A DNA stretch of 18,696 bases from Sulfurovum sp. (GTDB taxonomy: Bacteria; Campylobacterota; Campylobacteria; Campylobacterales; Sulfurovaceae): contig JALTYW010000211.1 in NCBI GenBank assembly GCA_027046415.1, positions 3,575 to 22,270 of the forward strand, written 5' to 3'. Below the pieces are notes generated by a model. That model saw only the letters and a list, made by a program, of their open reading frames with translations, searched no databases and was not told where the DNA came from. This document shows, piece after piece, positions 3,628 to 18,634 of this stretch. Position 1 is the first letter of the stretch, and each line of letters opens with the position of its first letter. Position numbers and translations under genes: made by a program.

Positions 3628-5118
3628 TCAATACCCTGAGGCAGAGATCATATAGTAGAGATAAGAGATAAGCGGCTGAACATAGAAGATCGCTGTGACT
3701 GTCGCAACCGTCGCCAGCCCAATCACTGCCATAAGCGGTTTGGAGAGGTTATAGTAGACAGTATCGACATCTTTGACCGGCTCTTTGAGGAACATATAGA
3801 CAACCAGCTTCAAATAGTAGTACGCTGCAACAGCCGAGTTAAGTCCCATCACAATTGCAAGCCATACATAACCGGCATTGACCGCAGCCTGCATCACATA
3901 GATTTTACCCCAGAATACAGAGAATGGCGGTACACCTGCCAATGACAGCATAAAGAGTGCCATGATCACTGCACCCATAGGCATAATATGGATCAGCCCT
4001 GCAAATTTTTCATACGGGTGATCAAAACGTGCACTAAAATGTCTTACTTTATGACGAGAAATCCAAAGCATTGCAAAAGCGCCAAGGTTCGTGAACATAA
4101 AGAGTGCGTAGTAGAGGAATATGCTCGCCGTACCTTCGGTTGTATCGAGTGCTATCGCTGCCATAATAAAACCAGCATGCGAAATAGAAGAGTAGGCAAG
4201 CATACGCTTGACATCTTCCTGCACCAGTGCCATCAGGTTTGCAATTGTCATCGTAATGACTGTCAGTATAAGAACCATATCTCTCACCCATTCAACACCC
4301 AGATCGATGTACATACCGAATACTCTTACTGCCACAACCAGCGTAGCGATCTTTGGCACGATTGACATATAACCGGCAAGCGGTGCAGAAGCCCCTTCAT
4401 AGACATCCGGTGCCCATGTATGGAACGGGAAGAGTGAAAGTTTGAATGCCAGTGCTACCATCAGCAATACGGAAGAGCCAAGGATAGCAAGCACAATCTC
4501 TGTCTCATGCAGTCTGGCAGCGAGTACCTGCGCTACCTGATAAAGCTCGATTGATCCTGTCAGAGCATATACGACTGCTGAACCCATAGCGAAGAATCCT
4601 GCGGCAAGCGCACCCATGGTGAAGTACTTGACTGCCGCTTCATAAGAGTTGCTTCTGTTGTGCAGCGCAATCAGGGTATAAAGCGACAGTGATGCTGTTT
4701 CAAGTCCGACAAAGATCAGGATCAGGTTGTCGCTGGCGACCATAAACTGGAAGCCGGCTACCATGAAGAGGAAGAGCGCGAAGAACTCCGGATAGGAGTA
4801 CTCATGGAAACGCTTCGAAGTCAGGGCAAGCGGCGTAAACAGGATCGATGCAACAATAATCAATAGCTGGGAGATAATAGAGATCCCATCGATAAGCATC
4901 ACATTAAAGAAACCGCGTTCATTGACATTGAGTCCGATCGTCGCACCGAAATCCACAATAAGGATCAGGATCGTCAGCATGACATAGAGAGACTTGTGCA
5001 GTTTACTGTTGATCAGATCAAGAATGAGGATCACAAGACCGCCTGCAATTGCTATCAGCATCGGTGCAAGGGTAATGAGGTTCAGACTCTCCATACTTAC
5101 TTTAATTGGTTCAAACAT
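3628..5118 (-). CDS. nuoN: NADH-quinone oxidoreductase subunit N (complex I membrane arm)
   Basis: This 496-residue protein is one of the three antiporter-like proton channels of complex I, in the inner membrane. It has about 14 hydrophobic helices. The channel glutamate lies in GLETASLSLY (E140) and the half-channel lysine in AFKLSLFPFHTWAPDVYEG (K226), both at positions expected for NuoN. The start overlaps the nuoM stop as TAATG and has a strong ribosome site (AGGGGAGGTGA). That favours M1 over the internal M9 and points to translational coupling. It is the last gene of the operon, followed by the hairpin at 3590-3613. Nothing in it departs from the family. Confidence 0.97.
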   Translation of the reverse strand: MFEPIKVSMESLNLITLAPMLIAIAGGLVILILDLINSKLHKSLYVMLTILILIVDFGATIGLNVNERGFFNVMLIDGISIISQLLIIVASILFTPLALTSKRFHEYSYPEFFALFLFMVAGFQFMVASDNLILIFVGLETASLSLYTLIALHNRSNSYEAAVKYFTMGALAAGFFAMGSAVVYALTGSIELYQVAQVLAARLHETEIVLAILGSSVLLMVALAFKLSLFPFHTWAPDVYEGASAPLAGYMSIVPKIATLVVAVRVFGMYIDLGVEWVRDMVLILTVITMTIANLMALVQEDVKRMLAYSSISHAGFIMAAIALDTTEGTASIFLYYALFMFTNLGAFAMLWISRHKVRHFSARFDHPYEKFAGLIHIMPMGAVIMALFMLSLAGVPPFSVFWGKIYVMQAAVNAGYVWLAIVMGLNSAVAAYYYLKLVVYMFLKEPVKDVDTVYYNLSKPLMAVIGLATVATVTAIFYVQPLISYLYYMISASGY

Positions 5119-6653
5119 TACTTCACCTCCCCTGTTTTAGTTGCTGCATGCGGTACTTTGATCATCTCTTTCGCTTCAGCAGTGATCGCTTTTTCATCCA
5201 TAAATACCAGCATAGCATTGACCGATTTATTAATCGGATCAAGTACCGGTTTTGGATAGACCCCAAGCCAGATCACAATAGCAACAAGCGGGATCAGTGA
5301 CCAGCTCTCTTTGGGTGTTAGGTCCTTAAGTGTCTTGTTCTCTTCTTTGGTAATAGGACCAAAGAAACTCTTTTTGTAAAGTGAAAGCATATAGACCGCT
5401 CCGACAATGATAGATGTTCCCGCAAGAATCGTCATAATAGGTGATACATCATAGAAGCCAAGAAGCACAAGGAACTCCCCTACAAATCCGATGGTAAGAG
5501 GAAGACCTACTGATGCCATCAGCATAATACCAAAGATCACTGCATATTTAGGCATGACAGATGCAAGACCGCCAAACTCGCTCATCAGTTTTGTATGTCT
5601 TCTGTCGTAAATAACGCCGACAAGCATAAAGAGCGCACCCGAAACGATACCATGTGAGAGCATTTGGAACACAGAACCACCAATTCCTTCGCTGTTAAGC
5701 GCAAAGATACCAAGCATAATGATACCCATATGTGAGACAGATGAGTATGCAATGACCTGCTTCATATCCTTTTGTGCATATGCCACCATTGCAGTATAGA
5801 TGATCATCACAATTGAGATCACAGCAATCGGTGTAATCATCATCACAGAAGCATCCGGGAACATCGGCAGTGAGAATCTTACAAAACCGTAGGTACCCAT
5901 TTTAAGCAATACCGCCGCCAGAATAACTGAACCGATTGTTGGTGCCTGACCGTGGGCATATGGCAGCCATGTATGGAACGGGAACATCGGTACCTTGATC
6001 GCAAAACCGAGGAAGAATGCAGCAAAGAGCCAGAGCTGATAGTTTACCGGCAACACCAGTGCGTACCAGTCTGTAATCGCAAAGCTCCATACCCCTGTAA
6101 GATTGTGGTAGACATATGCCACAAAAAGCATACCCACCAGCATCACAAGCGATCCCATAAAGGTATAGAGGAAGAACTTGATTGCTGCATATACTCTAAG
6201 TGGTCCGCCCCACGCACCGACAATGTACAGCATTGGTACGAGAGAGAGCTCCCAGAAAAGGTAGAATATAATTGCATCGAGTGCAACAAAAACACCAACC
6301 ATAGTCATCTCAAGGAAAAGAAGTGTGATGATCATGTTTTTGACATCTTTCTCAATACTCATACTCATCATACCGATCAGCGTCATCAATGTTGCCATGA
6401 TGATAATGAAGAGAGAAATACCGTCAACACCAAGATAGTAGTTAACACCAAAATCAGGGATGAGAGGAATCATCTCTACAAACTGCATTCCTGCATTTGA
6501 GGTATCAAAACTGAACCACAGCCAGAGAGAGAGAAGAAACTCGATCGCCGCAACGGTGATTCCGTACGCTCTTGCACTCTTTTTGTCCACTACAAATCCA
6601 AGCAATCCTGCAATTGCCGGGAAGAATACCAATACACTTAAAATATTATCCAT
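5118..6653 (-). CDS. nuoM: NADH-quinone oxidoreductase subunit M (complex I membrane arm)
   Basis: This 511-residue antiporter-like proton-pumping subunit has the essential Glu in FWELSLVPM (E135). Lys residues are at AIKVPMFPFHTWL (K220) and LLKMGTYGFVRF (K251), matching the E. coli E144, K234 and K265 set. One small oddity is WLPYAHGQAPT at 229-239, where most bacteria have WLPDAH; this Asp-to-Tyr change may be typical of the lineage, since the surrounding sequence is very well kept. A ribosome site AAGGAG lies six bases before the ATG, inside the ten-base gap after nuoL, and the 3' end overlaps nuoN as TAATG. The C-terminal 30 residues are charged and probably cytoplasmic. Confidence 0.97.
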   Translation of the reverse strand: MDNILSVLVFFPAIAGLLGFVVDKKSARAYGITVAAIEFLLSLWLWFSFDTSNAGMQFVEMIPLIPDFGVNYYLGVDGISLFIIIMATLMTLIGMMSMSIEKDVKNMIITLLFLEMTMVGVFVALDAIIFYLFWELSLVPMLYIVGAWGGPLRVYAAIKFFLYTFMGSLVMLVGMLFVAYVYHNLTGVWSFAITDWYALVLPVNYQLWLFAAFFLGFAIKVPMFPFHTWLPYAHGQAPTIGSVILAAVLLKMGTYGFVRFSLPMFPDASVMMITPIAVISIVMIIYTAMVAYAQKDMKQVIAYSSVSHMGIIMLGIFALNSEGIGGSVFQMLSHGIVSGALFMLVGVIYDRRHTKLMSEFGGLASVMPKYAVIFGIMLMASVGLPLTIGFVGEFLVLLGFYDVSPIMTILAGTSIIVGAVYMLSLYKKSFFGPITKEENKTLKDLTPKESWSLIPLVAIVIWLGVYPKPVLDPINKSVNAMLVFMDEKAITAEAKEMIKVPHAATKTGEVK

Positions 6654-6663
6654 TTAGCTCTCC

Positions 6664-8562
6664 TTAACCTATCACCGCTGCTGATACAGCCGCGACAACC
6701 AATAGTAACACTGCACCTACTGCCATCCAGTTCAGATAGTTCGAAAGGTTACCAGTCTGCATTTTTCTTGAACCGTCACCGGTTTCGTAGAGGAATTTCG
6801 CAATACCGTCCACTGTTGCATCGACAATTCTCATATCGACACTGTTCCACATCTTCTCAGAGATCATCGCATACGGCTTGGAGATAAACTCTTCATAGAA
6901 ATCAGGTATATAGTACTGGTTTGCAAGCAGTTTGTAGTACCAGCTCGACTCAAGCGCCTCATCCCGTTTCAGACCTTTATAGTATTTTTTGAATGCCAGC
7001 GCAATACCACCTACTGCAAATACCAGTACAACGATACCCAGCAGCCATGCAATGTGATGGGTATGCTCGCTCATATGGTATTCCGGAAGCAGTGCTGTCA
7101 CAAAATGTTCAAATGGTTCTTTGAAGAATCCTGCAATGACTGCAAGAATCGCGAGTGGAGACATCGCAATAAGTACATACTTGTACATCTCATGCGGATG
7201 AATGCCATACTGCTTATAGCGCTCATCTCCTTCAAATGTCAGGAATACCTGTCTGAAGCTGTAGAATGCGGTCATACCGGCAGTAACGACAAGAATCAGC
7301 CACAGCACCAATGTTCCCTCGTTCCATGCGGTTTCAATGATCGCATCTTTTGAGAAGTATCCGGCGAAGAACGGGATACCTGCCAGTGCCAGAGAAGCCA
7401 GCCCCATATAGATGTATGTCCATTTCATTGTTTTCTTCAAGCCACCCATCTTGAAGATGTCAAGCTCATCATGCATCGCGTGCATGACGTTACCTGCACC
7501 AAGGAAGAGCAGTGCTTTAAAGAATGCGTGTGCGGCAAGGTGGAAGAGTGCGATCCAGTATGCACCCAGACCCGCTGCAGCGAACATATATCCAAGCTGT
7601 GAGAGTGTCGAGAAAGCGATGATACGCTTCAAGTCTCTGTTCACAAGCGCCATGGAAGCGGCGAAGAATGCCACAAATGTACCCAGTGCTGCAATAAAGT
7701 AGCTCACGTCAGGTGTCATAGAGAAGAGCGGATTGGCACGGATGACAAGGAATACCCCTGCCGTTACCATGGTAGCAGCGTGGATCAGTGCCGATACCGG
7801 TGTAGGTCCTTCCATCGCATCGGTCAGCCATGTATGAAGCGGGAACTGTGCCGATTTACCCATTGCCCCTATGAAGAGGAAGATTGCCGCTGCATTAAGG
7901 ATACTGCCGCTCAGGTGCGGCAGCGCTGCAAAGACTTCATCGTACTGCAGTGATCCGACATTCCAGTAGAGGATAAAGAGTCCGACAAGCATACCAAGGT
8001 CAGCAATACGGTTCATGATGAACGCTTCATTGGCAGCCCATGAAGGTGAAATGGATGGATTTTCCTCTCTTGAAACATCCTCTTTGTGGTACCAGAAACC
8101 GATCAGCAGCCATGAACAGACACCAACCCCTTCCCAACCAATAAAGAGTCCAGCAAAGTTGTCTGACATGACAAGTACCATCATCGAGAAAACGAATGCC
8201 GAGAGGTAAGAGAAGAACCGGTTGAAACTCTTATCATGATCCATATATCCGTTGGAGTAAATGTGTACAACGGTTGAAACCAGTGTCACAACAGACATCA
8301 TCGTTACAGAGACCTGATCGACCACAAAACCAAACGGAATGTGCAGATCACCCGCACTGATCCAGTCCATCATCGTTACGTGGATTGTATTACCTGTTGT
8401 ATAGACATAGGATGCCAGCATCAGCGATGCGACCAGAGAAATACCAAGCAGTACCGATGCAACAACACCTACAAACTGCTTTTTCGGGCTCATCCCAAAC
8501 AGTGCTGCAAAAAGTGAACTCACAAGCGGAGCAAATAGTGCTATGTATACCAAATTTTCCAT
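6664..8562 (-). CDS. nuoL: NADH-quinone oxidoreductase subunit L (complex I membrane arm)
   Basis: This is the distal and largest proton-channel subunit, 632 residues. GWEGVGVCSWLLIGFWY places the essential glutamate at E144. GKSAQFPLHTWLTDAMEGPTPV holds K236, and the adjoining LIHAATMVTAGV segment has H261, all standard for NuoL. The C-terminal part after about residue 520 is amphipathic and agrees with the long lateral helix (HL) that runs along the membrane arm, ending in one last membrane helix. Two bases separate it from nuoK upstream. It shares the MrpA-type fold with NuoM and NuoN but is not an Mrp antiporter, given its place in the complete nuo operon. Confidence 0.97.
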   Translation of the reverse strand: MENLVYIALFAPLVSSLFAALFGMSPKKQFVGVVASVLLGISLVASLMLASYVYTTGNTIHVTMMDWISAGDLHIPFGFVVDQVSVTMMSVVTLVSTVVHIYSNGYMDHDKSFNRFFSYLSAFVFSMMVLVMSDNFAGLFIGWEGVGVCSWLLIGFWYHKEDVSREENPSISPSWAANEAFIMNRIADLGMLVGLFILYWNVGSLQYDEVFAALPHLSGSILNAAAIFLFIGAMGKSAQFPLHTWLTDAMEGPTPVSALIHAATMVTAGVFLVIRANPLFSMTPDVSYFIAALGTFVAFFAASMALVNRDLKRIIAFSTLSQLGYMFAAAGLGAYWIALFHLAAHAFFKALLFLGAGNVMHAMHDELDIFKMGGLKKTMKWTYIYMGLASLALAGIPFFAGYFSKDAIIETAWNEGTLVLWLILVVTAGMTAFYSFRQVFLTFEGDERYKQYGIHPHEMYKYVLIAMSPLAILAVIAGFFKEPFEHFVTALLPEYHMSEHTHHIAWLLGIVVLVFAVGGIALAFKKYYKGLKRDEALESSWYYKLLANQYYIPDFYEEFISKPYAMISEKMWNSVDMRIVDATVDGIAKFLYETGDGSRKMQTGNLSNYLNWMAVGAVLLLVVAAVSAAVIG

Positions 8563-8564
8563 CT

Positions 8565-8867
8565 TTACCCCCTCATGCTTGCAAGATCATCAAGATCAAG
8601 ACTACCGTGTTTTTTGAACAACACAATCAGAATACCCAGTCCGACTGCCACTTCACTCGCTGCGATTGCAATGATGAAGAATGCAAACATCTGACCGGTC
8701 AAATCATGGTAAAAGTGTGAAATAGCCGCAAAAGCAATATTGACCGCATTGAGCATCACCTCCGTCGCGAAGAAGAGCATCAGCAGATTACGTCTTCTCA
8801 GAACCCCCATCAGTCCAATTGAGAAGAGGATCGCCGATACGATCAGGTAGTGTGAAAGACCTATCAT
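8565..8867 (-). CDS. nuoK: NADH-quinone oxidoreductase subunit K (complex I membrane arm)
   Basis: This small three-helix membrane subunit (100 residues, the usual size) carries the two buried glutamates at the canonical positions, E36 in FFATEVMLNAVN and E72 in AASEVAVGLGILIVLFK. These form the proton path next to NuoJ and NuoN. The MrpC/NuoK family motif GLMGVLRRRNLLMLF precedes E36. The start overlaps the nuoJ stop as ATGA. Confidence 0.97.
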   Translation of the reverse strand: MIGLSHYLIVSAILFSIGLMGVLRRRNLLMLFFATEVMLNAVNIAFAAISHFYHDLTGQMFAFFIIAIAASEVAVGLGILIVLFKKHGSLDLDDLASMRG

Positions 8868-9436
8868 TTTGCATCCTTTTGTATCAGTATTTCATCTTCA
8901 GCGTCAACACTGGTATCTTTAGTGAGACTCTGATCCATTTTTTTACCCGCAAGTATAATCCCTGCAATCATCGCAACCAGCAGCATCACCGCCGCAACTT
9001 CGAAAGGCACCAGATATTTGGTAAAGAGCACGATACCGACATCCTGTGCATTCCCTGCACCGTCATGGATTGGGTAGAGAGCCTGAATCGCTTCCGAATG
9101 GATTGGTGCGGCAAACATTAAAACAAGTACCAGCGCACTGAGTCCACCCAGCAGGAAGATTAGTGAAGCCGGTGTATTTTTCTCTTTAATATCACGTGTC
9201 GCATCAAAGAACATCATGGCAAACGAGTAGAGTGCCATAACCGCACCGACATATACGATCAGTTGCACGACTCCGAGGAAGTCAGCGCCGAGAATAAAGA
9301 AAAATCCTGAGATAAGTACCATGCCTGATGCCAGTGAGGTCATCGCATAAAGTACATTCTTGCTCATCACTGTGATGAGAAAAAGGACGATCGTCAGCGC
9401 CGAAAAAAGGTAAAAGGCTATCATTTCATACATCAT
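8864..9436 (-). CDS. nuoJ: NADH-quinone oxidoreductase subunit J (complex I membrane arm)
   Basis: The 190-residue product has five predicted membrane helices. The conserved third helix reads VQLIVYVGAVMALYSFAMMFF, the segment that changes between alpha and pi-bulge forms during turnover. The last about 20 residues are polar and acidic and should be cytoplasmic. The ribosome site AAGGAG lies just before ATGATG; either Met could start, and the first is used here. It sits eight bases after the nuoI stop and overlaps nuoK. Confidence 0.95.
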   Translation of the reverse strand: MMYEMIAFYLFSALTIVLFLITVMSKNVLYAMTSLASGMVLISGFFFILGADFLGVVQLIVYVGAVMALYSFAMMFFDATRDIKEKNTPASLIFLLGGLSALVLVLMFAAPIHSEAIQALYPIHDGAGNAQDVGIVLFTKYLVPFEVAAVMLLVAMIAGIILAGKKMDQSLTKDTSVDAEDEILIQKDAK

Positions 9437-9443
9437 TGTCTCC

Positions 9444-10067
9444 TTAGTACGCTAACGGCGTTTTCTTGATATTCTCATCCGCATTCGGTGTTACGGCACC
9501 AAAGCCGTCATACTCCTGCTGCAGGTTGAGTTTGTCGATTGGCGTAAGCATATCTTCAAAGAGCGAGAAGCTGGCTCTCTGCTCAGAAGCCGTCTCATAT
9601 CTCGGCCCGTGTACGATCGCCAGTTCAGGACATACTTCGGCACAGTAACCGCAGAAGATACATCGACCAAAGTTGATGGTATATTCACTGACCTCTTTAC
9701 GCTGGTTTTCATCATAGCGCGTATCCATGGTAATACAGTTGGAGATACAGATCTTTTCACACAGCCCACAGCCGATACATCTGTAGTGTCCGCTTTCAAG
9801 CAGTCTCAACATCTCATGAATCGCTCTGTAGCGTGGAGAGATAGGCAGCTTTTCGAACGGATACTTTACTGTATGCATCTGCCCTTTAAAGAGTGCATTG
9901 ATCATCTCTCTCATCGTTACCCACAGACCGACAAAAAGCTCTGCTTTAAATGTTCTTCTGACAACCTGGCGAAATTTTCCCATACCAGTTTCAGGGGTAT
10001 GTTCCAGATCCAGCATCACATAGTTCTGCTGTCCGACATTTCTGTTTTTAAATTGTTCTAAACCCAT
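9444..10067 (-). CDS. nuoI: NADH-quinone oxidoreductase subunit I (2 x [4Fe-4S])
   Basis: NuoI carries electrons from NuoG toward NuoB through clusters N6a and N6b on the cytoplasmic arm. The first ferredoxin motif has C97, C100, C103, C107 (CIGCGLCEKIC) and C111; the second has C136, C139, C142, C146 followed by Pro (CIFCGYCAEVCP). At 207 residues it is longer than E. coli NuoI (180), through an extra N-terminal stretch and a polar C-terminal tail. AAGGAG lies five bases before the ATG. The protein shows no change at its cluster ligands, so the connecting electron path after NuoG appears intact. Confidence 0.96.
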   Translation of the reverse strand: MGLEQFKNRNVGQQNYVMLDLEHTPETGMGKFRQVVRRTFKAELFVGLWVTMREMINALFKGQMHTVKYPFEKLPISPRYRAIHEMLRLLESGHYRCIGCGLCEKICISNCITMDTRYDENQRKEVSEYTINFGRCIFCGYCAEVCPELAIVHGPRYETASEQRASFSLFEDMLTPIDKLNLQQEYDGFGAVTPNADENIKKTPLAY

Positions 10068-10076
10068 ATCTACTCC

Positions 10077-11129
10077 TTATACCATCATCACGATACCGGT
10101 GATGACTACGTTGATCACCGCAATCGGCATCAACACCTTCCAACACAGCCACATCAGCTGATCCGGTCTTACATGAGGCCATGCAGCCCTGACCCACAGC
10201 ATGAGGAAGAAGAAGAATCCGACTTTCAGAATGATTGTCAGCCATCCGATACCCTCTTCACTGTATCCGCCCAAAAAGACGATTGCCGCAATGATTGAAA
10301 TCGTAATCATATTCGCATATTCACCGATGAAGAACATACCCCAGCGCATACCCGAATACTCTGTTGCATACCCGGAAACGACTTCCGCTTCATGCTCGAG
10401 CAGGTCAAACGGTGTTCTGTTTGTTTCTGCAAACCCGGCGATCAGGAACAGCACAAATGCAACCGGCTGCTGCCAGATGAGCCAATGGCTGATTCCCCCA
10501 GCCTGTGCTTCATTGAAATCTACAAATGAAAGCGATCCCACAAGCATAATAGGTGCAAGAATAGAAAGACCGGTTACCACTTCGTAGGAGAGGAACTGGA
10601 CTGCCGTACGTGCCGCACCGATGATACCCCATTTGTTCGCCTGTGCCATACCGGCAAGCAACGGTCCATAGAGACCGGCTGCCATCATACCAAGTACAAA
10701 CAGAATCCCGATATTCAGATCGGCTGCGATAGAAGGCACAAAAGTACCGCCAAGTACAGGAATCCATTCAGGGATTGTAAAGTCAGGGAATACAGGCACT
10801 GCCGCCAGAGCGATAAAAGCAGTAGCCGCTGTAATGACCGGTGCAACCATAAAGATCAATCTGTTTGCATTCTGCGGAACGATATCCTCTTTGGTAAAGA
10901 GTTTGATACCGTCTGCAATAATTTGAAGCAATCCGTACGGACCAACATGCATAGGTCCCAGACGTCGCTGCATGAAAGCAAGTACCTTTCTCTCCAGATA
11001 GGTACCAAACCCGGCAACAGCAGAGATGATTGCCAAAATAATGATGGCTTTGATCCACACACCTGCTGCCGTCACCTCTGGCAAATGCTGTACGAATGTT
11101 TCCACGTTTGTATAAGTTACCACTTCCAT
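10077..11129 (-). CDS. nuoH: NADH-quinone oxidoreductase subunit H (quinone-site membrane subunit)
   Basis: NuoH joins the peripheral arm to the membrane arm and forms part of the quinone chamber. The 350-residue protein has about eight to nine helices and the conserved first-loop sequence LERKVLAFMQRRLGP (45-59). It also has PYGLLQIIADGIKLFTKED and the acidic funnel segment EHEAEVVSGYATEYSGM. The C-terminal RAAWPHVRPDQLMWLCWK is standard. One base separates its ATG from the stop of nuoG copy 1 (TAAGATG). The quinone is presumably menaquinone, given the MqnP-like gene in this window. Confidence 0.97.
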   Translation of the reverse strand: MEVVTYTNVETFVQHLPEVTAAGVWIKAIIILAIISAVAGFGTYLERKVLAFMQRRLGPMHVGPYGLLQIIADGIKLFTKEDIVPQNANRLIFMVAPVITAATAFIALAAVPVFPDFTIPEWIPVLGGTFVPSIAADLNIGILFVLGMMAAGLYGPLLAGMAQANKWGIIGAARTAVQFLSYEVVTGLSILAPIMLVGSLSFVDFNEAQAGGISHWLIWQQPVAFVLFLIAGFAETNRTPFDLLEHEAEVVSGYATEYSGMRWGMFFIGEYANMITISIIAAIVFLGGYSEEGIGWLTIILKVGFFFFLMLWVRAAWPHVRPDQLMWLCWKVLMPIAVINVVITGIVMMV

Positions 11130-11130
11130 C

Positions 11131-13611
11131 TTACACCTTTCTCATAGTTACTTTTCTGTATCTGGCGTTGCCGAAGAGCCCATACACATCTTCTGCACTC
11201 TTGAAGTCTGCCAATGCCGTGATGTCACCTTCCATACGGTCATCTTCGATTACATCGACCACAATACTTCTGTTGCCAAAGTCAATCTCGACACGTGCGC
11301 CAAGATGCTCCGCTTTTGCAGGACTGGCGTAGAGCCCGAATGATTCAAAAATCTCATGTGCTTTATCGCTAAAGTCATTGAACTGTCTTTGCGGGTTACA
11401 GCGATAGACTATCTCTCCTTCAAGCACACACTGCTCATCGATCGGTTCTACAGCGACAGTGTCGGCATCACACGCAATACTGTTAAGTGCATAGCCTCTG
11501 TTTTCGGTACCGTCATTGAGATAGCCGTTTGGCAGGTCATCAAATGCGACGCTTTCAAACCCTTTCTCCACAGGAAGTGACTTTGTCCAGTCAACGGTCA
11601 ACTCCGGCGCACCCACAAGGGCTTTCATCAGATCATTGAGTTCATACCCTTTATACTCCAGTGCCGCATTGGTCGGTGTGACACGTTTATGCATATTGGT
11701 CAGGGTACCTTCCTGCTGGTTCATCGCAGGCATGTCAAGGTCTCCGTCTCCAAGTGCTGAGAGTTTAAAGTCTCCGTTTTCGTTGTAGCCTACTGTATAT
11801 CCTGTCGCTTCATCATCAAGATCACAGATCAGCGCAACCCCCAGAGAGTTCGTCTTTGGCGGGATCATCGCCACACGAATCGGTGTTGTCTGTTCGATGA
11901 GTGCGATCAGCTTTGCGATATTTTCCGCTCTTTCGTGGAAGTAGAGGTCTTCACCGACGATCATCGAGAAGGACTCTTTCTTCTTCATCATCTTCTCAAA
12001 TGCAACATCAAATGCATCACTCTCTTTTCCAAGCAGTTCTACCAGACCGTTCTTCTCAACTGTCACCTCTTTTTCAACCATTTCTGGTACTTTCTTGGTG
12101 ACCTCTTTCTCTTCACCAGTCTCTTCGTCTATGACTGTTTCAGTGACATCCTTCATCACCTTCTCTTTGGCAGTCTTGGTTGTTGTAGTCTTGAAGCTCT
12201 CAAGATAGGACTTTACATCCTCTGGAAGCTTCTCTTTATCTGCAAAAAGATCGAGCACAAGATAGAGTGCTGCTTCCTCAAGCCCTACTTTATGCGTAAA
12301 GACTTCAATGTTCTTACCGAACGTCGGCACAAGATTGTCTCCTACCGGATGGAAGTAGAGTCCTGCCCCCTTGTTCATCTTTTGAACATTGTTGAATGCA
12401 TAGCGTGCATTGGGGTTGTCGTTACGCAGCGCAGCACCGATGCTTATGACAAAGTCTGTTGCCATCACCTCTTTGAAGTCGTAGCTGTAGAGTGACTGCC
12501 CTGCTGCTTTGCTGTATGAAGCGAGGAACTTCTGGAAAGCTCTTGCATCCAGGTTGACCAGTTTGACGCCAAGCTTCTCTTTGAGTGTCTGAAGCATCAG
12601 CGCCTCTTCATTGGTAATGACAGAGTTAAAGCGGATCGTTTCCGCTTTTTTCAATGCTTCTACTGCTGCATTGAATGCTGCTTCGTCTTTCCCTTCTACT
12701 CTGTTTTCAAAATCATATCCGTAGCGTCCGGCACCGCACAGAGAAACATAGTTCCACTCATTGGTAACACGGTAGATCTTCTCACTTCTGTCAGATACAG
12801 AGGTATGCTTCTTCTCATAGTAGATTTGGCATCCTGAACTACAGTGTGCACAAGTTGCCGGTACACGCTCAAGCTCCCATGCATTGGAGGTGTAGACAAA
12901 GTCACGTCCTGTCAGCGCACCCACAGGACATACAGCGGTACACTCACCACAGTCGGAACAGTCAGTAAAGTCGGTACCGTTACTTGGCGCAATGATCGAC
13001 TTCTGCAGCTTGTTCCACATCGCATAGGCATCTTTTGGCATCGTCTCTTTATAGGCTTTGTCAAGCGGTTCGCCGCCACGCTTCGTTGTTGAGATCGCAG
13101 CATCGCCTATCATATCTTTACAAACAGTGGTACAGCGTTCACAGACAATACAGAGCCCTGCATCGTAGTGGAGTACGGAACTCCAGTCCTTCACTTCACG
13201 TTTGGTATCAGGAATCGCATATGTCTGCGAATCTACAGCCAGTTCCAGTGTATAGTTTTGCAGTTCACACTCACCACTTTTGTCACACACACCACACTGA
13301 AGCGGGTGGTTGACATCATAGACTTCCATGATCGCACGGCGTTCAGCAAGGATATTTGGAGTATCGACTGTGATCTCCATCCCCTCTTTGACCTTGGCAT
13401 TACAGGCATAAACCTGTTTGCCGTCCGCTTCCACAAGACAGAGACGGCAGGCCAGTGTCGGGCTGCATCGTGTCAGATAACAGATCGCCGGGATGAAAAC
13501 ATCATTCGCACGTGCTGCATTGAGGATATATTCACCCTCTTTTGCATGATATGTCTTACCGTCAATGGTGATGGTAACCATATTCTCTACTGTTTTTACT
13601 TCACTCATCAT
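11131..13611 (-). CDS. nuoG: NADH-quinone oxidoreductase subunit G, copy 1 (with an extra ferredoxin-type cluster)
   Basis: This 826-residue Fe-S subunit of the peripheral arm has cluster ligands readable in order. N1b [2Fe-2S] is C44, C55, C58, C70. N5 is H102, C106, C109, C115. Next comes a double ferredoxin-type region with C154, C157, C160, C164 and C218, C221, C224, C228 (ending CPVGAL), then N7 at C254, C257, C261, C292. An ordinary NuoG needs only four cysteines between N5 and N7 (N4); eight here point to two [4Fe-4S] clusters, as in NADP-reducing hydrogenase and formate dehydrogenase subunits. The rest is a degenerate molybdopterin-oxidoreductase fold with no sign of cofactor use. A charged insertion occupies about 474-520. 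Its start overlaps copy 2 by 11 bases, with AGGA upstream; the second Met (13608) is equally possible. It is probably the orthologue of the single NuoG in Campylobacter and Helicobacter. Confidence 0.93.
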   Translation of the reverse strand: MMSEVKTVENMVTITIDGKTYHAKEGEYILNAARANDVFIPAICYLTRCSPTLACRLCLVEADGKQVYACNAKVKEGMEITVDTPNILAERRAIMEVYDVNHPLQCGVCDKSGECELQNYTLELAVDSQTYAIPDTKREVKDWSSVLHYDAGLCIVCERCTTVCKDMIGDAAISTTKRGGEPLDKAYKETMPKDAYAMWNKLQKSIIAPSNGTDFTDCSDCGECTAVCPVGALTGRDFVYTSNAWELERVPATCAHCSSGCQIYYEKKHTSVSDRSEKIYRVTNEWNYVSLCGAGRYGYDFENRVEGKDEAAFNAAVEALKKAETIRFNSVITNEEALMLQTLKEKLGVKLVNLDARAFQKFLASYSKAAGQSLYSYDFKEVMATDFVISIGAALRNDNPNARYAFNNVQKMNKGAGLYFHPVGDNLVPTFGKNIEVFTHKVGLEEAALYLVLDLFADKEKLPEDVKSYLESFKTTTTKTAKEKVMKDVTETVIDEETGEEKEVTKKVPEMVEKEVTVEKNGLVELLGKESDAFDVAFEKMMKKKESFSMIVGEDLYFHERAENIAKLIALIEQTTPIRVAMIPPKTNSLGVALICDLDDEATGYTVGYNENGDFKLSALGDGDLDMPAMNQQEGTLTNMHKRVTPTNAALEYKGYELNDLMKALVGAPELTVDWTKSLPVEKGFESVAFDDLPNGYLNDGTENRGYALNSIACDADTVAVEPIDEQCVLEGEIVYRCNPQRQFNDFSDKAHEIFESFGLYASPAKAEHLGARVEIDFGNRSIVVDVIEDDRMEGDITALADFKSAEDVYGLFGNARYRKVTMRKV

Positions 13612-15886
13612 TGTTTCCTATATTCTCGTTATTGGTTTTTCTGAACACCAGTCTGCTAAATCTGTAAGAGGATAGCAAAGATGCACTTAATCCCATGTCA
13701 AATGTCGGATTGAGAGCAATGGTTCCTTTCATCTCTGTATCAATCTTAAACAGACGTTCAAAAGATATACCATCGATCTCAAATGTGATTGTGTCACCAT
13801 CTTGCAGTTTTGCAGCAGCTGCAAACTGTGTCGAACCAAGCATCACCGGTTCATCTTTGAGAAGCGTGGACTTCGCAGTAAATGGAGAAAACTGCTCTAC
13901 AGGGTCACAGCGATAGACCACAGCACCGTCAAAGGCTTCGATCTCTTCTATCTCATCGAGCGTACGCTTAACCGGTACTTTTTGGGATGCCAGCAGGTAT
14001 CCGCGATGTTCGGTTCCCGTTGCATCAAAGTACTCATCAAGTGCATCAAATACAGTCTTTTTGAACCCTTTGGCTACAGGAAGCATCGGTGTATAATCTA
14101 TCGTATATTTGGCGTGAATCCCGAGTGCATTGGCGATGTCGTTCAGGACGTACCCACCATACGGCAGTGCAACATGCATCGGTACCACACGCTTGTCCAC
14201 TGTGGTGAGTGTACCCTCCTGCTGATTGAGTGCCGGCATATCCAAATCTCCGTCACCCAGTGCAGAGAGGGTAAAGTCACCTTTGACATTGTAGCCTACC
14301 GTTTTACCTTCGGCACTGTCATCCAGATCACAAATGAGCGATACGCCCATTGCATTGCCCGCAGGCGGTACACAGATCACATTGAAACCGGCATATGTTT
14401 CAAGCAGCGCAACCAGTTTAGCGATCTGCTCAGCACGCGGGTGCATATAGAGATCACTGCCGACAACCAGAGAGAAACCTCTCTTTTTCAGCAGAGACTT
14501 CTTCAGAGCATCGAGCTCTTCTTCACCGACATTGCACTCTGCACTCAGGTTGCCAATATCAAGATCATCAAGATACTCTCTCAGTGTTTTTGTCACATCC
14601 TCATTTCCCTCAAGCAGTGTATGCGCCAACAGTGCTGCAACGCCCTCTTCACTACCAACTTCATACTTGATAAACTGGGTCACGATGTTCTGAATCTCAC
14701 TGTCTTCCATCGGATGCATATAAATCACTCTGGCTCGCTGCCATTTGCTTGCCATGTTGATGTGGTACTTAACCGTCGGTGAGTCGTTGTTGATACGTAT
14801 CCCAAGTACAATGACTGCCTGAGAATCGGATAGTGTTTTCAAATCACCATTGTAGAGGTGCTTACCTGTTACTGTACTGTACGCAGCCATGAACTTCTGA
14901 TAGGCTCTCGCTTCATGAGAGACCAGTTTGAAGCCATATTTCTCTTTGAGCTTCTGAAGGATCATCGCCTCTTCATTGGAGATTTGTGGGGCAAATACCA
15001 CACTGTCGGCATTTTTGAACGCTTCTACTGCCGCATTGAATGCCGCAGGATCTTTGCTTACCCCTTCATTGGCATAGTCAAATCCGAAACGTCCGGCTCC
15101 GCAGAGAGTGCTGAACTCAAACTCATTGGTCACACGGTAGATGCGGTCACGCTTAACCTCATAATACATCTGGCATCCGCCGCCACAGTGAGGACATGCA
15201 GAAGGAATCTTAGTCAACTCCCATGCATTGGAGGTGTATTTGAAAGCGGTACTCACCAGTGCACCCACAGGGCATACTGCTGCCGCTTCACCAAGCGAAG
15301 CATAATTCTTCTCCTGCTTAACATTGATAATGGTTGAACCGTATCCGCCAAACTTGACCTTGAGTGCTTCATCTCCGGTGATCTCTGTAGATACTCTCAC
15401 ACACTTTTCACACATGATGCAGAGTGCGGGGTCGTAGGAGACATGTCCCCAGTTTTCTACCGGTCTGTGCTGATCACGTGCGGTGAACTCCTGTGTATCG
15501 ACATCGAACTCCATCGTTTTGTTCTGCAGATCACACTCACCGCTTTTGTCACAGACACCACACTCGAGCGGATGGTTGACATCGTAGAGTTTCATAATGT
15601 TCTGGCGTTCATGGAAAAGCGCACTGTTGTTGGTCGTAATCACTGCACCGTCAACGGCTTTCTCCTGACAGGAGAGGATCATGCCGTCAACACCCTCTAC
15701 ATTCACGACACACATTCTGCATGAGCCTATCGGCTGTACTTTTGAGAGGTAGCACATCGTAGGAATATAGATATCATTTTCCCGTGCAATCTGCAGAATG
15801 GTCTTTCCAAAGGTGCTTTTACACACTTTCCCATCGATCGTTACGGTGATCGGTTTTCCTGTATTGATTGAATTGTGTACACTCAT
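13601..15886 (-). CDS. nuoG: NADH-quinone oxidoreductase subunit G, copy 2 (canonical cluster set)
   Basis: This second, different NuoG (761 residues) comes just before copy 1 in the operon. Ligands: N1b C45, C56, C59, C73; N5 H105, C109, C112, C118; N4 C156, C159, C162 and C205 in AVCPVGAL, with S166 where copy 1 has its fourth motif Cys; N7 C231, C234, C238, C262. That is the ordinary NuoG set. It shares clear full-length similarity with copy 1, closest around SALGDGDLDMPA and NQQEGTLT (540-561). It lacks the charged insertion of copy 1. I start it at the ATG at 15886, not at an in-frame ATG 69 bases further up, because the added residues are the antisense-like MKRRSPRRSAVC stretch inside the upstream gene and MSVHNSINTGKPITVTIDG is a normal NuoG start. 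One base separates it from the upstream stop. Confidence 0.92.
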   Translation of the reverse strand: MSVHNSINTGKPITVTIDGKVCKSTFGKTILQIARENDIYIPTMCYLSKVQPIGSCRMCVVNVEGVDGMILSCQEKAVDGAVITTNNSALFHERQNIMKLYDVNHPLECGVCDKSGECDLQNKTMEFDVDTQEFTARDQHRPVENWGHVSYDPALCIMCEKCVRVSTEITGDEALKVKFGGYGSTIINVKQEKNYASLGEAAAVCPVGALVSTAFKYTSNAWELTKIPSACPHCGGGCQMYYEVKRDRIYRVTNEFEFSTLCGAGRFGFDYANEGVSKDPAAFNAAVEAFKNADSVVFAPQISNEEAMILQKLKEKYGFKLVSHEARAYQKFMAAYSTVTGKHLYNGDLKTLSDSQAVIVLGIRINNDSPTVKYHINMASKWQRARVIYMHPMEDSEIQNIVTQFIKYEVGSEEGVAALLAHTLLEGNEDVTKTLREYLDDLDIGNLSAECNVGEEELDALKKSLLKKRGFSLVVGSDLYMHPRAEQIAKLVALLETYAGFNVICVPPAGNAMGVSLICDLDDSAEGKTVGYNVKGDFTLSALGDGDLDMPALNQQEGTLTTVDKRVVPMHVALPYGGYVLNDIANALGIHAKYTIDYTPMLPVAKGFKKTVFDALDEYFDATGTEHRGYLLASQKVPVKRTLDEIEEIEAFDGAVVYRCDPVEQFSPFTAKSTLLKDEPVMLGSTQFAAAAKLQDGDTITFEIDGISFERLFKIDTEMKGTIALNPTFDMGLSASLLSSYRFSRLVFRKTNNENIGNNDE

Positions 15887-15887
15887 C

Positions 15888-17897
15888 TTACACCGCCACC
15901 ATTGAGATATAGTAACAACGCATACAGCGCTCCGCCTCGGCGATCGCCTCTTCACCGGTAAACCCGAGGTTGACCTCTTTGTTGTTCGTTTTACGTTCTT
16001 CTACACTGAGTTTTTCACTCACGGCACGAGGCAGACCCGGCATCCATCCGGTAATCTTTTCGTTCTTGTCATAGACTTTGAGCTTGTTGAGATGGTCTTC
16101 CATGATCTCCTCATCTGTCAAGCTCACTTTACCGTCATAGATATAACGGCTAATGACCGATGCGGCACGTCTTGCCTGTCCAACCGCATTTACAATGGTC
16201 ATAGGTCCATACTCACAGTCACCTGCAGCAAAGAGCCCCGGACGAGAGCTCATGAAATCTCTTCCGTTGGTCAGGATCGTATTCCATGAAGTCAGTTCAA
16301 TGTTCCACTCTTCCGGCAGCAGTTGCAGGTCTGCAGACTGTGAAACCGCCGGAATCAGATAATCACATTCGATCTCAAAGTCTGCACCCTCGATCTTCTT
16401 CAACTGCGGTCTTCCACCATCAGGGTCAGGTACGAGTTCAAAACGGTTGACTTTGAGTTTGGTAATCTTCTCGCCGTCATCGAATATCTCTTCAATAGCC
16501 GAGTGGAAGATGAACTCTACACCCTCTTCTACCGCTTCATGGTACTCTTCGTAAGTCGTGTTTCGGATGATCGTCTTTTCGTCACGGCGATAGAGCATGA
16601 TCACCTTCTTCGCCCCTTCACGGATCGAGCAGCGCACAACATCCATCGAGGTAAATCCTCCACCGACACAGACAACCACTTTGTCTTTGAGCTCATTGGA
16701 AGCGGGTGAACCAATACCGTACTTGTTCCAGAGGTTTACCTTGTCAAGCATGGCGATCGCACCCCAATACCCTTTCATTTTCGGGTTTTCATTGGCAGCA
16801 CGTACCTTTTTGGAGAGGCGTGTACCAAATGCCAGAAGGGTTGCATCATATTCGGCATCGATCTCTTTGAGACGCTCAGCATCTACGCGGTGATTGTTAT
16901 GAATATGCACCGTAGGAAGATCCAATACAAGCTGGATATCTTTGTTATATTTGTCAACCGGCATACGATACTCAGGTACCCCTACAGCCACCTCTCCACC
17001 GTTGACCGGAAGCTCTTCAAAGATATCGACATGAATCCCCTGAATACCAAGGTAGTATGCTGCTGTCAGTCCCGCAGGTCCCGCACCGATGATCGCAACC
17101 TTTTTCCCATCATTGCGCGGAGGCTGTACTTCAAACGGATGCTGCCACGGCAGAGCATGGTCGGTTTCATAGTCTGCACCGAGCCTTTTAAGCTCCATGA
17201 TGGAGATTGGCTCATCCAGATTGGCACGGCGGCAGGCATCTTCACACGGGTGCGGACAGACACGCCCACAAGTGTGTGCCAGTGGCATGGTCTGGCGTGT
17301 CGCTGCCAGTGAATCGGTGAAGATCATGTCACGTACACCTTCGATGTAGGCAGGGATATCGACATGTGCCGGACACATATCGGTACACGGTGCCGTTACC
17401 TTGGCAATATAACTGGTGTCCCCACCATAATGCTTGGATGGCTGCTGCGCATCAATACAGGTATCAAACTGTTCCTTGTAGTGCTCCATCAGATCGAGGA
17501 TAGGTTTTGGAACCGTTTTCCCGATCTCACATTTGGAGGTTGCCATCATCGTTTCAGAAACCTCTTTGAGGTGCGCTACGTCATCATGCGTCCCTTCACC
17601 CCTTGCGATCTTGTCAAGCAGGTCATAAAGAATACGTCCGCCCCATCGTCCCGGTGCACAGCGTCCACATGCCTCGGAGTACTCCTGGTACTGCGCCGCA
17701 TATTGTGAAGCAAGTTCTACTGCATCGATATCTTCATCAAAGATTGCTACCCCATCCCAACCAATAAAGGCTTTGGACTTGGTATCACCGTCATAGGTTT
17801 CAGGCAGTTTAAATCCCGATTCACTCCACTGGTCAGACGGTTTGCCGCGGTTGTCGACAAACTCGTCCCTCCAGGTAGAGAATACTACGCGTGACAT
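15888..17897 (-). CDS. NuoF-C-terminal-domain / GltD-type flavoprotein fusion, electron-input subunit of complex I
   Basis: This 669-residue protein stands where nuoF should be. Residues about 1-70 have no fold I recognise. Residues 74-147 match the N3-cluster domain at the end of NuoF: SEACGRCAPGRWGG gives C77 and C80, TSKCEIG gives C123, but the third ligand of the normal CGKCxPCR motif is G83. The FMN/NADH-binding and SLBB parts of NuoF are absent. From about 167 a complete GltD/DPYD-type module follows: Fe-S domain C171, C175, C210, C214, C218, C222; FAD site GAGPAG (271-276); nucleotide site VGGGFTSMDVVR (411-422) with YRRDE (436-440), suggesting NADP(H); and GLFAAGDCEYGPMTIVNA closing the FAD site. 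It overlaps the NuoE-like stop by one base (TAATG). No gltB is nearby, so a complex I role is far likelier than glutamate synthase. The donor (NADPH, NADH or ferredoxin) is inferred, not shown. Confidence 0.88.
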   Translation of the reverse strand: MSRVVFSTWRDEFVDNRGKPSDQWSESGFKLPETYDGDTKSKAFIGWDGVAIFDEDIDAVELASQYAAQYQEYSEACGRCAPGRWGGRILYDLLDKIARGEGTHDDVAHLKEVSETMMATSKCEIGKTVPKPILDLMEHYKEQFDTCIDAQQPSKHYGGDTSYIAKVTAPCTDMCPAHVDIPAYIEGVRDMIFTDSLAATRQTMPLAHTCGRVCPHPCEDACRRANLDEPISIMELKRLGADYETDHALPWQHPFEVQPPRNDGKKVAIIGAGPAGLTAAYYLGIQGIHVDIFEELPVNGGEVAVGVPEYRMPVDKYNKDIQLVLDLPTVHIHNNHRVDAERLKEIDAEYDATLLAFGTRLSKKVRAANENPKMKGYWGAIAMLDKVNLWNKYGIGSPASNELKDKVVVCVGGGFTSMDVVRCSIREGAKKVIMLYRRDEKTIIRNTTYEEYHEAVEEGVEFIFHSAIEEIFDDGEKITKLKVNRFELVPDPDGGRPQLKKIEGADFEIECDYLIPAVSQSADLQLLPEEWNIELTSWNTILTNGRDFMSSRPGLFAAGDCEYGPMTIVNAVGQARRAASVISRYIYDGKVSLTDEEIMEDHLNKLKVYDKNEKITGWMPGLPRAVSEKLSVEERKTNNKEVNLGFTGEEAIAEAERCMRCYYISMVAV

Positions 17898-18634
17898 TAT
17901 TTAGCCTTTGATGTAAGAAGTTTTTTTGCATCAGCGACAGACTCTTTGAAGTCCCCTTTGAAAGAGTACTTCTCTTCCATCATCTGAATCTGCTCTTCAG
18001 TCATGTTGGCAACATCTTTAATAGTATAAATACCTTCGCTGTTGAGCTTCTCCATATAGGCTTTGCCGATCCCTTTGATCTTTGTCAGATCATCGCCTTT
18101 AGGGGCTGCTTCTTTTTTTTCAGCACTCTTTTTGGCAGGCTCTTTCTTGGCAGCCGCTTGCTTGCTCTCTGCCTTGGCTTTTGCTTTGGCTTCTGCTTCT
18201 GCTTTCGCCTTTGCCTCTTCTTCAGCCTTGGCTTTTGCTGCGGCTTCCTCTTTTGCTTTTGCTTCAGCAGCAGCTTTTTCAGCCTCTTCTTTGGCTTTAG
18301 CTTCAGCAGCCGCCGCTTCAGCCTTGGCTTTCTCTTCTGCAGCTTTTTGCTCTGCTTCGATACGTGCCTTCTCTACCGCTTCAGCCCTTGCCTTTCGAGT
18401 CTCTTCATCTACCTTCTTGACAACGATCGTCCAGTCAACTTCGTTAAACTTCAGAGAGTTCATCAGGTCGTGTCCAAGCGCTTTGATATAGTCGGCCGAT
18501 TTTTGGATATGGGAGAAGTCACCTACCTCGAACAGGAAAATCCCAACTTCACCTACCTTGAGCCCTTCCTCGATCAGCTCTCCCATTCTGTCATAGAAAT
18601 CATCATGCAAATGTCTTAAATCATATCTTTTCAT
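17897..18634 (-). CDS. NuoE-substitute protein with Ala/Lys/Glu coiled coil and C-terminal helix-hairpin-helix
   Basis: This 245-residue protein lies between nuoD and the NuoF/GltD fusion. Residues 1-75 ([50 protein letters not shown]) resemble the small 75-80 residue NuoE substitutes of Helicobacter and Campylobacter (HP1264/Cj1575c type). There is no cysteine anywhere, so it cannot bind the N1a [2Fe-2S] cluster of true NuoE. Residues about 76-178 are nearly all Ala, Lys and Glu and should make a long helix or coiled coil. Residues 181-245 ([22 protein letters not shown]) form a helix-hairpin-helix domain like the tails of some alphaproteobacterial NuoE proteins. A strong ribosome site (AAGGAG) overlaps the nuoD stop region. 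The role as a docking piece for an electron carrier or for the fusion flavoprotein is inference; the assignment to complex I rests on position and the N-terminal similarity. Confidence 0.85.
18101..18409 (-). repeat. Low-complexity Ala/Lys/Glu coding tract
   Basis: About 309 bases encode residues 76-178 of the NuoE-like protein with an imperfect, reiterated GCT/GCA-AAR-GAR pattern ([16 protein letters not shown] style). The near-repeats make this stretch a likely site of length change between strains through slippage or recombination, in steps that usually keep the reading frame. Confidence 0.75.

Follow-up and report, generated by a model that had tools for sequence, protein, structure and literature searches.

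A Sulfurovum complex I operon with a putative NADP(H)-linked electron-input module

The operon analysed here raises the question from which donor a complex I without the usual NADH-input subunits takes its electrons. We investigated 18,696 nt of Sulfurovum sp. DNA (assembly GCA_027046415.1, contig JALTYW010000211.1, positions 3,575–22,270), in the following called the window. All nuo genes of the window lie on the (−) strand, and the gene order is A-B-C-D-X-F-G1-G2-H-I-J-K-L-M-N, with X denoting a cysteine-free protein, F a fusion protein and G1 and G2 two NuoG proteins. NuoA–D are located just upstream of the window and were seen in the flank of locus L081. A first-pass annotation had described an operon with a rebuilt electron-input module, comprising a fusion of a NuoF N3-type domain with GltD as well as a second NuoG, and matches to Pfam and NCBIfam bear this out. 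Judged from sequence comparison, the operon probably encodes a proton-pumping complex I in which an SfrAB/FdhB-like NADP(H) module, consisting of F and G1, takes the place of the NADH end, i.e. NuoE and the NuoF that contains flavin mononucleotide (FMN), and which would act as a reversible NADPH:menaquinone oxidoreductase.

The core subunits A–D and G–N are all present and are common to the window operon and the canonical 14-subunit NADH complex I. The canonical type in addition possesses FMN-NuoF and a [2Fe-2S] NuoE, neither of which was found in the window operon; in other Campylobacterota of this type (loci L161–L163) a NuoF with an N3 match is accompanied by one NuoG. We surveyed 397 genomes from Campylobacterota, accepting matches to F at E≤1e-60, and found F in 126 of them, PF16514 (the family of X) in 332 and PF01512 (the FMN/NADH domain of NuoF) in 95. 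Many carriers of F are Campylobacterota that live on sulfur and hydrogen. As the first-pass annotation had stated, no FMN-type NuoF is apparent: a search for PF01512 came up empty both in the genome of the window (65.7% complete) and in all 10 congeners in the survey (98–100% complete). A normal NuoF encoded elsewhere and serving this complex was rejected on the same result. Among the 126 genomes with F, PF01512 was missing from 99 and present somewhere in the genome in 27. The gene at the place of the [2Fe-2S] NuoE encodes a protein without cysteine that matches PF16514; no genome-wide search for NuoE was made.

The fusion protein F (669 aa, 15888..17897, − strand) is a single open reading frame (ORF) with matches to PF10589 (residues 66–145, E 1.2e-19), Fer4_20 (168–246, E 1.6e-22) and Pyr_redox_2 (265–575, E 5.8e-25). 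Its nearest named relatives are metagenome-assembled genomes of Sulfurovum, 97–98% in F. We compared F across 143 loci, consisting of the window and loci of further genomes with some species perhaps counted twice, and across 236 listed proteins. The PF10589 match (17463..17702, −) agrees with the NuoF N3-type domain described earlier, although one of its four cluster cysteines is replaced. Cys77, Cys80 and Cys123 are invariant in 143/143 loci and 236/236 proteins, and the same holds for Gly83, located at what we take to be the third ligand place of the NuoF N3 pattern, a pattern also visible in a fusion from Collinsella described below. Lys122 and Glu124, which flank Cys123, are invariant too. 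Possibly this site carries a [4Fe-4S] cluster with a non-Cys ligand or an open site, a [3Fe-4S] cluster, or no cluster at all.

The GltD-type part of F (residues 168–661; 15915..17396, −) comprises two [4Fe-4S] Cys sites as well as folds for flavin adenine dinucleotide (FAD) and NADP(H), and is closest in sequence and fold to NfnABC-A and StnC. The fold comparison covered mainly residues 168–661, and the predicted local distance difference test score (pLDDT) of the F model is below 50 at two cluster-ligand stretches, 169–174 and 660–669. The domain is circularly permuted: residues 629–661 of F align with residues 10–42 of the NfnB-type chain 4ylf_B, and the CxxC with which NfnB begins sits C-terminally in F, as in StnC. 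In alignments with PDB sequences Lys237 of F is the counterpart of StnC Lys170, and Arg311 takes the place of the FAD-site Arg; both are found in 143/143 loci, as is the pair Arg437-Arg438 of the NADP fold. In StnC the cluster nearest the flavin reportedly has three Cys and Lys170 as ligands, where NfnB has Glu, and StnC is described as having lost bifurcation and passing NADPH electrons to its partner (PMC10482914). F carries the Lys of the StnC type and not the Glu of the NfnB type. Three further cysteines in the FAD/NADP folds, Cys410, Cys423 and Cys561, are invariant in 143/143 loci and absent at these positions from five aligned PDB sequences; the Collinsella fusion also has Cys at the position of Cys561. 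In genera g25 and g46 of family f2 (L131, L132, L154, L155, L157 and L158) F is lengthened to 724–962 aa by a variable insert that separates the N3 part from the GltD part.

From the first inspection a bifurcating or reversible device linking NAD(P)H, ferredoxin and menaquinone had been suggested; a bifurcating or confurcating one would divide the electrons of NADPH over menaquinone and ferredoxin. Among GltD relatives of solved structure, the nearest do come from bifurcating enzymes (NfnABC, Stn, NfnB), and Arg311 of the FAD site is kept throughout, but Lys237 represents the state of the reportedly non-bifurcating StnC (PMC10482914), and the parts on which bifurcation in the Stn and Hyd enzymes depends (FMN site, NuoE-type [2Fe-2S] site) were not found. 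In StnABC, GltD lies inside the NuoG-like chain and feeds the FMN-containing StnB, whereas in the window it is fused to N3 and no FMN protein was found. A StnB/HydB-type FMN partner was not detectable as PF01512 in the own genome or the 10 congeners, and X has no Cys, so that it offers no counterpart of the [2Fe-2S] proteins StnA/HydC. Because of the StnC-type Lys and the missing FMN and [2Fe-2S] partners we consider bifurcation very improbable; together with the single flavin site, these features make a plain reversible step between NADPH and the Fe-S wire the likeliest.

An N3-type domain joined to a GltD-type FAD/NADP oxidoreductase is the layout that presumably defines SfrB/FdhB, SfrB being assumed to have the N3-type domain as well, and F shows this layout. 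Database names of F proteins include 'formate dehydrogenase beta subunit', 'FAD-dependent oxidoreductase' and 'glutamate synthase small chain', and P0246 and P0248 are named 'NADPH-Fe(3+) oxidoreductase subunit beta'. SfrB/FdhB of Geobacter SfrAB and Moorella FdhB are reported NADP(H) subunits that either resemble GltD in sequence or combine Fe-S with NADP-binding parts, and SfrA of Geobacter is said to be related to the NuoG-like part of StnC. The beta subunit of the NADPH-dependent formate dehydrogenase of M. thermoacetica is reported to be SfrB2 (PMC13040438), and for an [FeFe] hydrogenase an SfrB-like protein has been suggested as the partner that oxidises NADPH (PMC3543383). StnC and NfnABC-A combine a permuted GltD domain with a NuoG-like wire, as here, and StnC shares the Lys at the FAD-proximal cluster. 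By contrast, SfrAB and FdhB, which we liken to F by description and not by sequence, are soluble or cytoplasmic and stand outside any proton pump. From these comparisons F would handle NADP(H), with NADPH as the likeliest donor; a donor other than NADH is supported to this extent. We liken the window complex to a complex I chassis fitted with an NADP(H) input device of the SfrB/FdhB type; those hallmarks of bifurcating NfnB, Stn and Hyd that were tested are absent from it.

The second component of the module is G1 (13601..15886, −). Its open frame, 13601–15955, starts at GTG, and the ATG at 15886 just past the stop of F gives a protein of 761 aa. Both G1 and G2 (11131..13611, −) match the NCBIfam model NuoG PRK08493, with 852 and 1106 bits respectively (cut-off 591), and both carry the N1b, N4, N5 and N7 motifs. 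Searching with regular expressions, we found N1b in 101, N5 in 100, N4 in 103 and N7 in 93 of 103 full G1, and N1b, N5 and N4 in all of 104 full G2, with N7 in 91. G2 is the NuoG that is retained also in the X-bearing operons without F that were read. An extra [4Fe-4S] motif, CxxCxxCxxxCP, occurs in 104/104 full G2, including that of the window, and in 62/103 full G1; it is missing from 41 G1, namely that of the window, those of 39 named-genome loci and that of L150. G1 is split in L022 and L079, and G2 is split into two ORFs (309 + 537 aa) in L130 (5681–8051; family f2, genus g48), which may be natural or due to assembly error.

A survey of the Campylobacterota for the fusion together with a second nuoG had been proposed, and it gave the 126 genomes with F. 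In the 143 loci a G1 comes after F wherever the next gene is readable: it is a full G1 in 101 cases, a G1 split in two ORFs in 2 and a G1 truncated where the locus ends in 37; in the other 3 the next gene lies out of view. X-F-G1 sits between D and G2 in all operons read far enough. In nine of the 126 genomes the match to F sets in no earlier than residue 157; the six that were read contain the N3 part followed by an insert, one is cut by a contig end, and in G283 and G286 the N3 part was not read. The named-genome scan, in which 80 loci were kept of 188 relatives, returned titles of Sulfurovum, Nitratifractor, Arcobacteraceae and other Campylobacterota. One locus (L053) is titled Chloroflexota, which is probably a binning error. 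No relative was found on viral contigs (10 stretches). A plasmid search with F gave 185 records, 2 of which cover 80% of F; in the Collinsella record an N3-GltD fusion lies beside an [FeFe] hydrogenase with a NuoG-like N-terminus. Over 600 columns this fusion shares 31% identity with F, and its N3 motif is complete with four Cys, whereas F of Campylobacterota has three. In the literature searched, as far as its text was available, we found no account of N3 fused to GltD, or of two NuoG, in complex I of Campylobacterota, although early papers on the group may mention the fusion.

The product of nuoX (17897..18634, −; 245 aa, HP1264-type) has zero Cys and matches PF16514 (E 7.2e-39), followed by an HhH_5 tail. 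Its top PDB match is 2lxr, 'NADH dehydrogenase I subunit E' (E 7.5e-24). The earlier description as a cysteine-free NuoE-like protein is right with regard to the cysteines, but X belongs to a Pfam family of its own and is here called NuoE-like by position and name. The window and several congeners have a long frame (170–249 aa), in which, in the window, a charged, Ala/Lys/Glu-rich linker precedes the HhH domain; among the matches listed, most entries of other genera have a frame of about 74–121 aa. NuoX is a feature of the flavodoxin-type complex I of Campylobacter and Helicobacter (epsilon-Nuo), which also agrees with the window operon in core subunits, G2 and gene order apart from the input genes. 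In place of F and full G1 it has a gene here called y (NuoY).

We compared y with the NuoG proteins of the fusion-bearing operons. Operons without F show the order D-X-y-G2-H. In the 13 loci read y has 240–339 aa (219–354 aa across all frames sampled), and it directly follows X (gap −25 to 116 bases) at 70/70 X places in 69 F-less genomes, 57 from the X matches listed and 12 from family f3; at least 206 F-less genomes have X (332 minus 126). A protein 92% identical to a sampled y, P0180, is named 'NADH dehydrogenase I subunit F nuoF [Helicobacter pylori]'. The view of Helicobacter NuoY as a NuoF was ruled out, as 11 of the 12 sampled y proteins match NuoG and none matches a NuoF model. The profile of 12 y matched that of 24 G1 with E 6.5e-63 over 271 columns and that of 21 G2 with E 1.4e-22 over 259 columns. 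Because the match to G1 begins near residue 331 and skips most of ~505–640, we assign y to the C-terminal part of G1; by these profiles it is a G1 without the Fe-S half and without an internal stretch. There is no conserved Cys across the 12 aligned y, and Pfam gave weak matches only (Molybdopterin in 3/12) with no significant flavin-domain match, for which reason electrons may enter G2 directly in this type. X and y form one open frame of 352–354 aa, a natural NuoX-NuoY fusion, in L171 and L172 (both genomes tested of genus g57, family f3).

The likeness to the NuoEF replacement of Helicobacter and Campylobacter, which had been pointed out at first, holds for X, G2 and the core, which are common to both, but overlooked that their 'NuoF' is a G1 remnant. 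The window operon is not of the flavodoxin type, since F and a full G1 stand after X in place of y. The donor could still be reduced ferredoxin or flavodoxin, with F as a side branch, i.e. a built-in ferredoxin/flavodoxin:NADP oxidoreductase on the Fe-S wire. The shared X, G2 and core are compatible with this, and reviews name these donors for epsilon-Nuo: one uses the name nuoXY and gives flavodoxin or ferredoxin as the likely donor (PMC6682613); according to the other, flavodoxin is the source of the electrons that Cj1574c, probably with Cj1575c, carries into complex I (PMC4178425, after Weerakoon and Olson). The equation of Cj1574c with y is ours and is drawn from the gene name and its place in the operon, not from sequence. 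However, the flavodoxin type manages without F and the Fe-S half of G1, both in the 13 loci read and at the 70 places with y after X, and we consider such a donor unlikely.

Another reading, in which F and G1 would be a soluble NADPH oxidoreductase of the SfrAB kind that is simply co-transcribed with nuo, is also rather improbable. In its favor is the description of SfrAB as a soluble Fe(III) reductase (PMC7483475) and of the Moorella NADP-formate dehydrogenase as cytoplasmic (PMC5736913). Yet X-F-G1 is placed between D and G2 in every operon read far enough, the remnant y stays in the operon after F is gone, and Cj1574c is reported to bring flavodoxin electrons into complex I (PMC4178425). 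As y remains in the operon and Cj1574c reportedly feeds complex I, the C-terminus of G1 should be part of the complex.

The module reading of F and G1 gains from their co-occurrence. In the sampled genomes F and the Fe-S half of G1 either both occur or are both missing, while the C-terminal part of G1 is kept either way; because both go missing together, we place them on one electron path. Parts, gene order, motifs, co-occurrence and the homology of NuoY with G1 are observed, and assembly, NADPH specificity and direction are proposed from them as follows. G1 would be bound to the complex by its C-terminal part, its Fe-S half being there to take electrons from F. Electrons would move reversibly between NADPH, the FAD of F and its two GltD-type [4Fe-4S] clusters, then between these, the three-Cys N3-type cluster of F and the Fe-S clusters of G1, and further between G1, the Fe-S clusters of G2, NuoI/NuoB and menaquinone. 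In autotrophs using the reverse tricarboxylic acid (rTCA) cycle the reverse direction would mostly apply, with the proton motive force (pmf) driving menaquinol electrons to NADP+; the forward direction could apply in lineages without ATP-citrate lyase. In lineages fed by flavodoxin, F would have been lost and G1 cut back to its C-terminal part.

The textbook redox potentials are −320 mV for NADPH and −74 mV for menaquinone. PMC10734219 gives the latter value as well. We calculated that the transfer of two electrons from menaquinol to NADP+ costs ~47 kJ/mol, which corresponds to a pmf of ~123 mV if four protons flow back. With ferredoxin at −450 mV as target, ~188 mV would be needed. NADP+ is feasible for reverse transport, since ~123 mV suffices. 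We also compared the occurrence of F and ATP-citrate lyase in the 397 genomes, counting strong lyase matches (118 of 124 genomes matched; six weak entries, all F-less, were dropped): both are present in 102 genomes, only F in 24, only the lyase in 16 and neither in 255, an association that kinship inflates. Reverse electron transport to NAD(P)H has been proposed earlier for the partial Nuo of Nautilia profundicola (PMC2628731); that complex is said to be without nuoE, F, G and K, and the text seen mentions neither a fusion nor a second NuoG.

We give somewhat less than an even chance to a wider version, in which a dedicated NADPH-linked complex I, with an SfrAB-type module where NADH dehydrogenase would be, lets rTCA autotrophs make NADPH by reverse transport, and the flavodoxin type of Helicobacter and Campylobacter is the same machine after repeated loss of the module, its 'NuoF' being a stripped second NuoG. 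Several points weigh against these proposals. The N3-type cluster of F is one ligand short (Gly83), and a wire of two NuoG in series is a geometric assumption. The kinship of F with SfrB/FdhB is drawn from layout, source names and papers, and the described relatives are soluble (SfrAB, PMC7483475) or cytoplasmic (the Moorella enzyme, PMC5736913). Of the 24 F genomes without a strong lyase match 16 belong to family f2, and one is the incomplete own genome; F is therefore not tied to autotrophy alone. Conversely, 9 of the 16 lyase genomes without F belong to family f4, from which X is missing as well as F.

How often did F and y replace each other? In a quick tree built from joined NuoD/H/I (51 entries, 13 with y), 6 changes between F and y are required, a number that holds when only strongly supported branches are considered. 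After removal of L125, L126 and L149 (long branches) and L160 (half-filled), the reduced tree (47 entries, 10 y) still requires 6 changes, and y as one clade is rejected by the approximately unbiased (AU) test (p-AU 3e-48). A single switch followed by vertical descent was ruled out by these trees. In the tree of y, G1 and G2 two y of family f6 fall inside the f6 G1 (support 83–90, not starred) and four y of f2 group with the f2 G1 (support 95, starred). The y gene tree (258 columns, long branches) is compatible with one origin of y (p-AU 0.134; 0.285 without f6), and without f2 the one-origin tree even scores better (p-AU 0.828). As one origin is not rejected there, repeated trimming of G1 and transfer of X-y-G2 cassettes are not told apart. 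The y type may be derived by loss, with F as the older state. One genome of the window's family, G208 (L128, L160), has two operons beginning X-y-G2 and an ATP-citrate lyase but no match to F. Horizontal transfer into G208 is suggested, since NuoD of one operon groups with family f10 (support 99).

Variants of complex I are classed by their input device, which uses NADH, ferredoxin, F420H2 or flavodoxin, and an NADPH device would be added to these. Occurring in 126/397 genomes and in 102/118 of those with strong ATP-citrate lyase, it would explain the NADPH supply in autotrophs of vents and sediments without a canonical NADH complex I. If the Helicobacter 'NuoF' is re-read as C-terminal part of a second NuoG, the entry point for flavodoxin would have to be sought elsewhere.

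The remaining genes of the operon follow downstream of nuoG2 on the (−) strand. nuoI (9444..10067) was assigned by an NCBIfam-type match; nuoH (10077..11129), nuoJ (8864..9436), nuoK (8565..8867) and nuoL (6664..8562) were assigned by ORF and gene order. The antiporter-like nuoM (5118..6653) and nuoN (3628..5118) were named by translation and position, both showing a weak match to NuoL.

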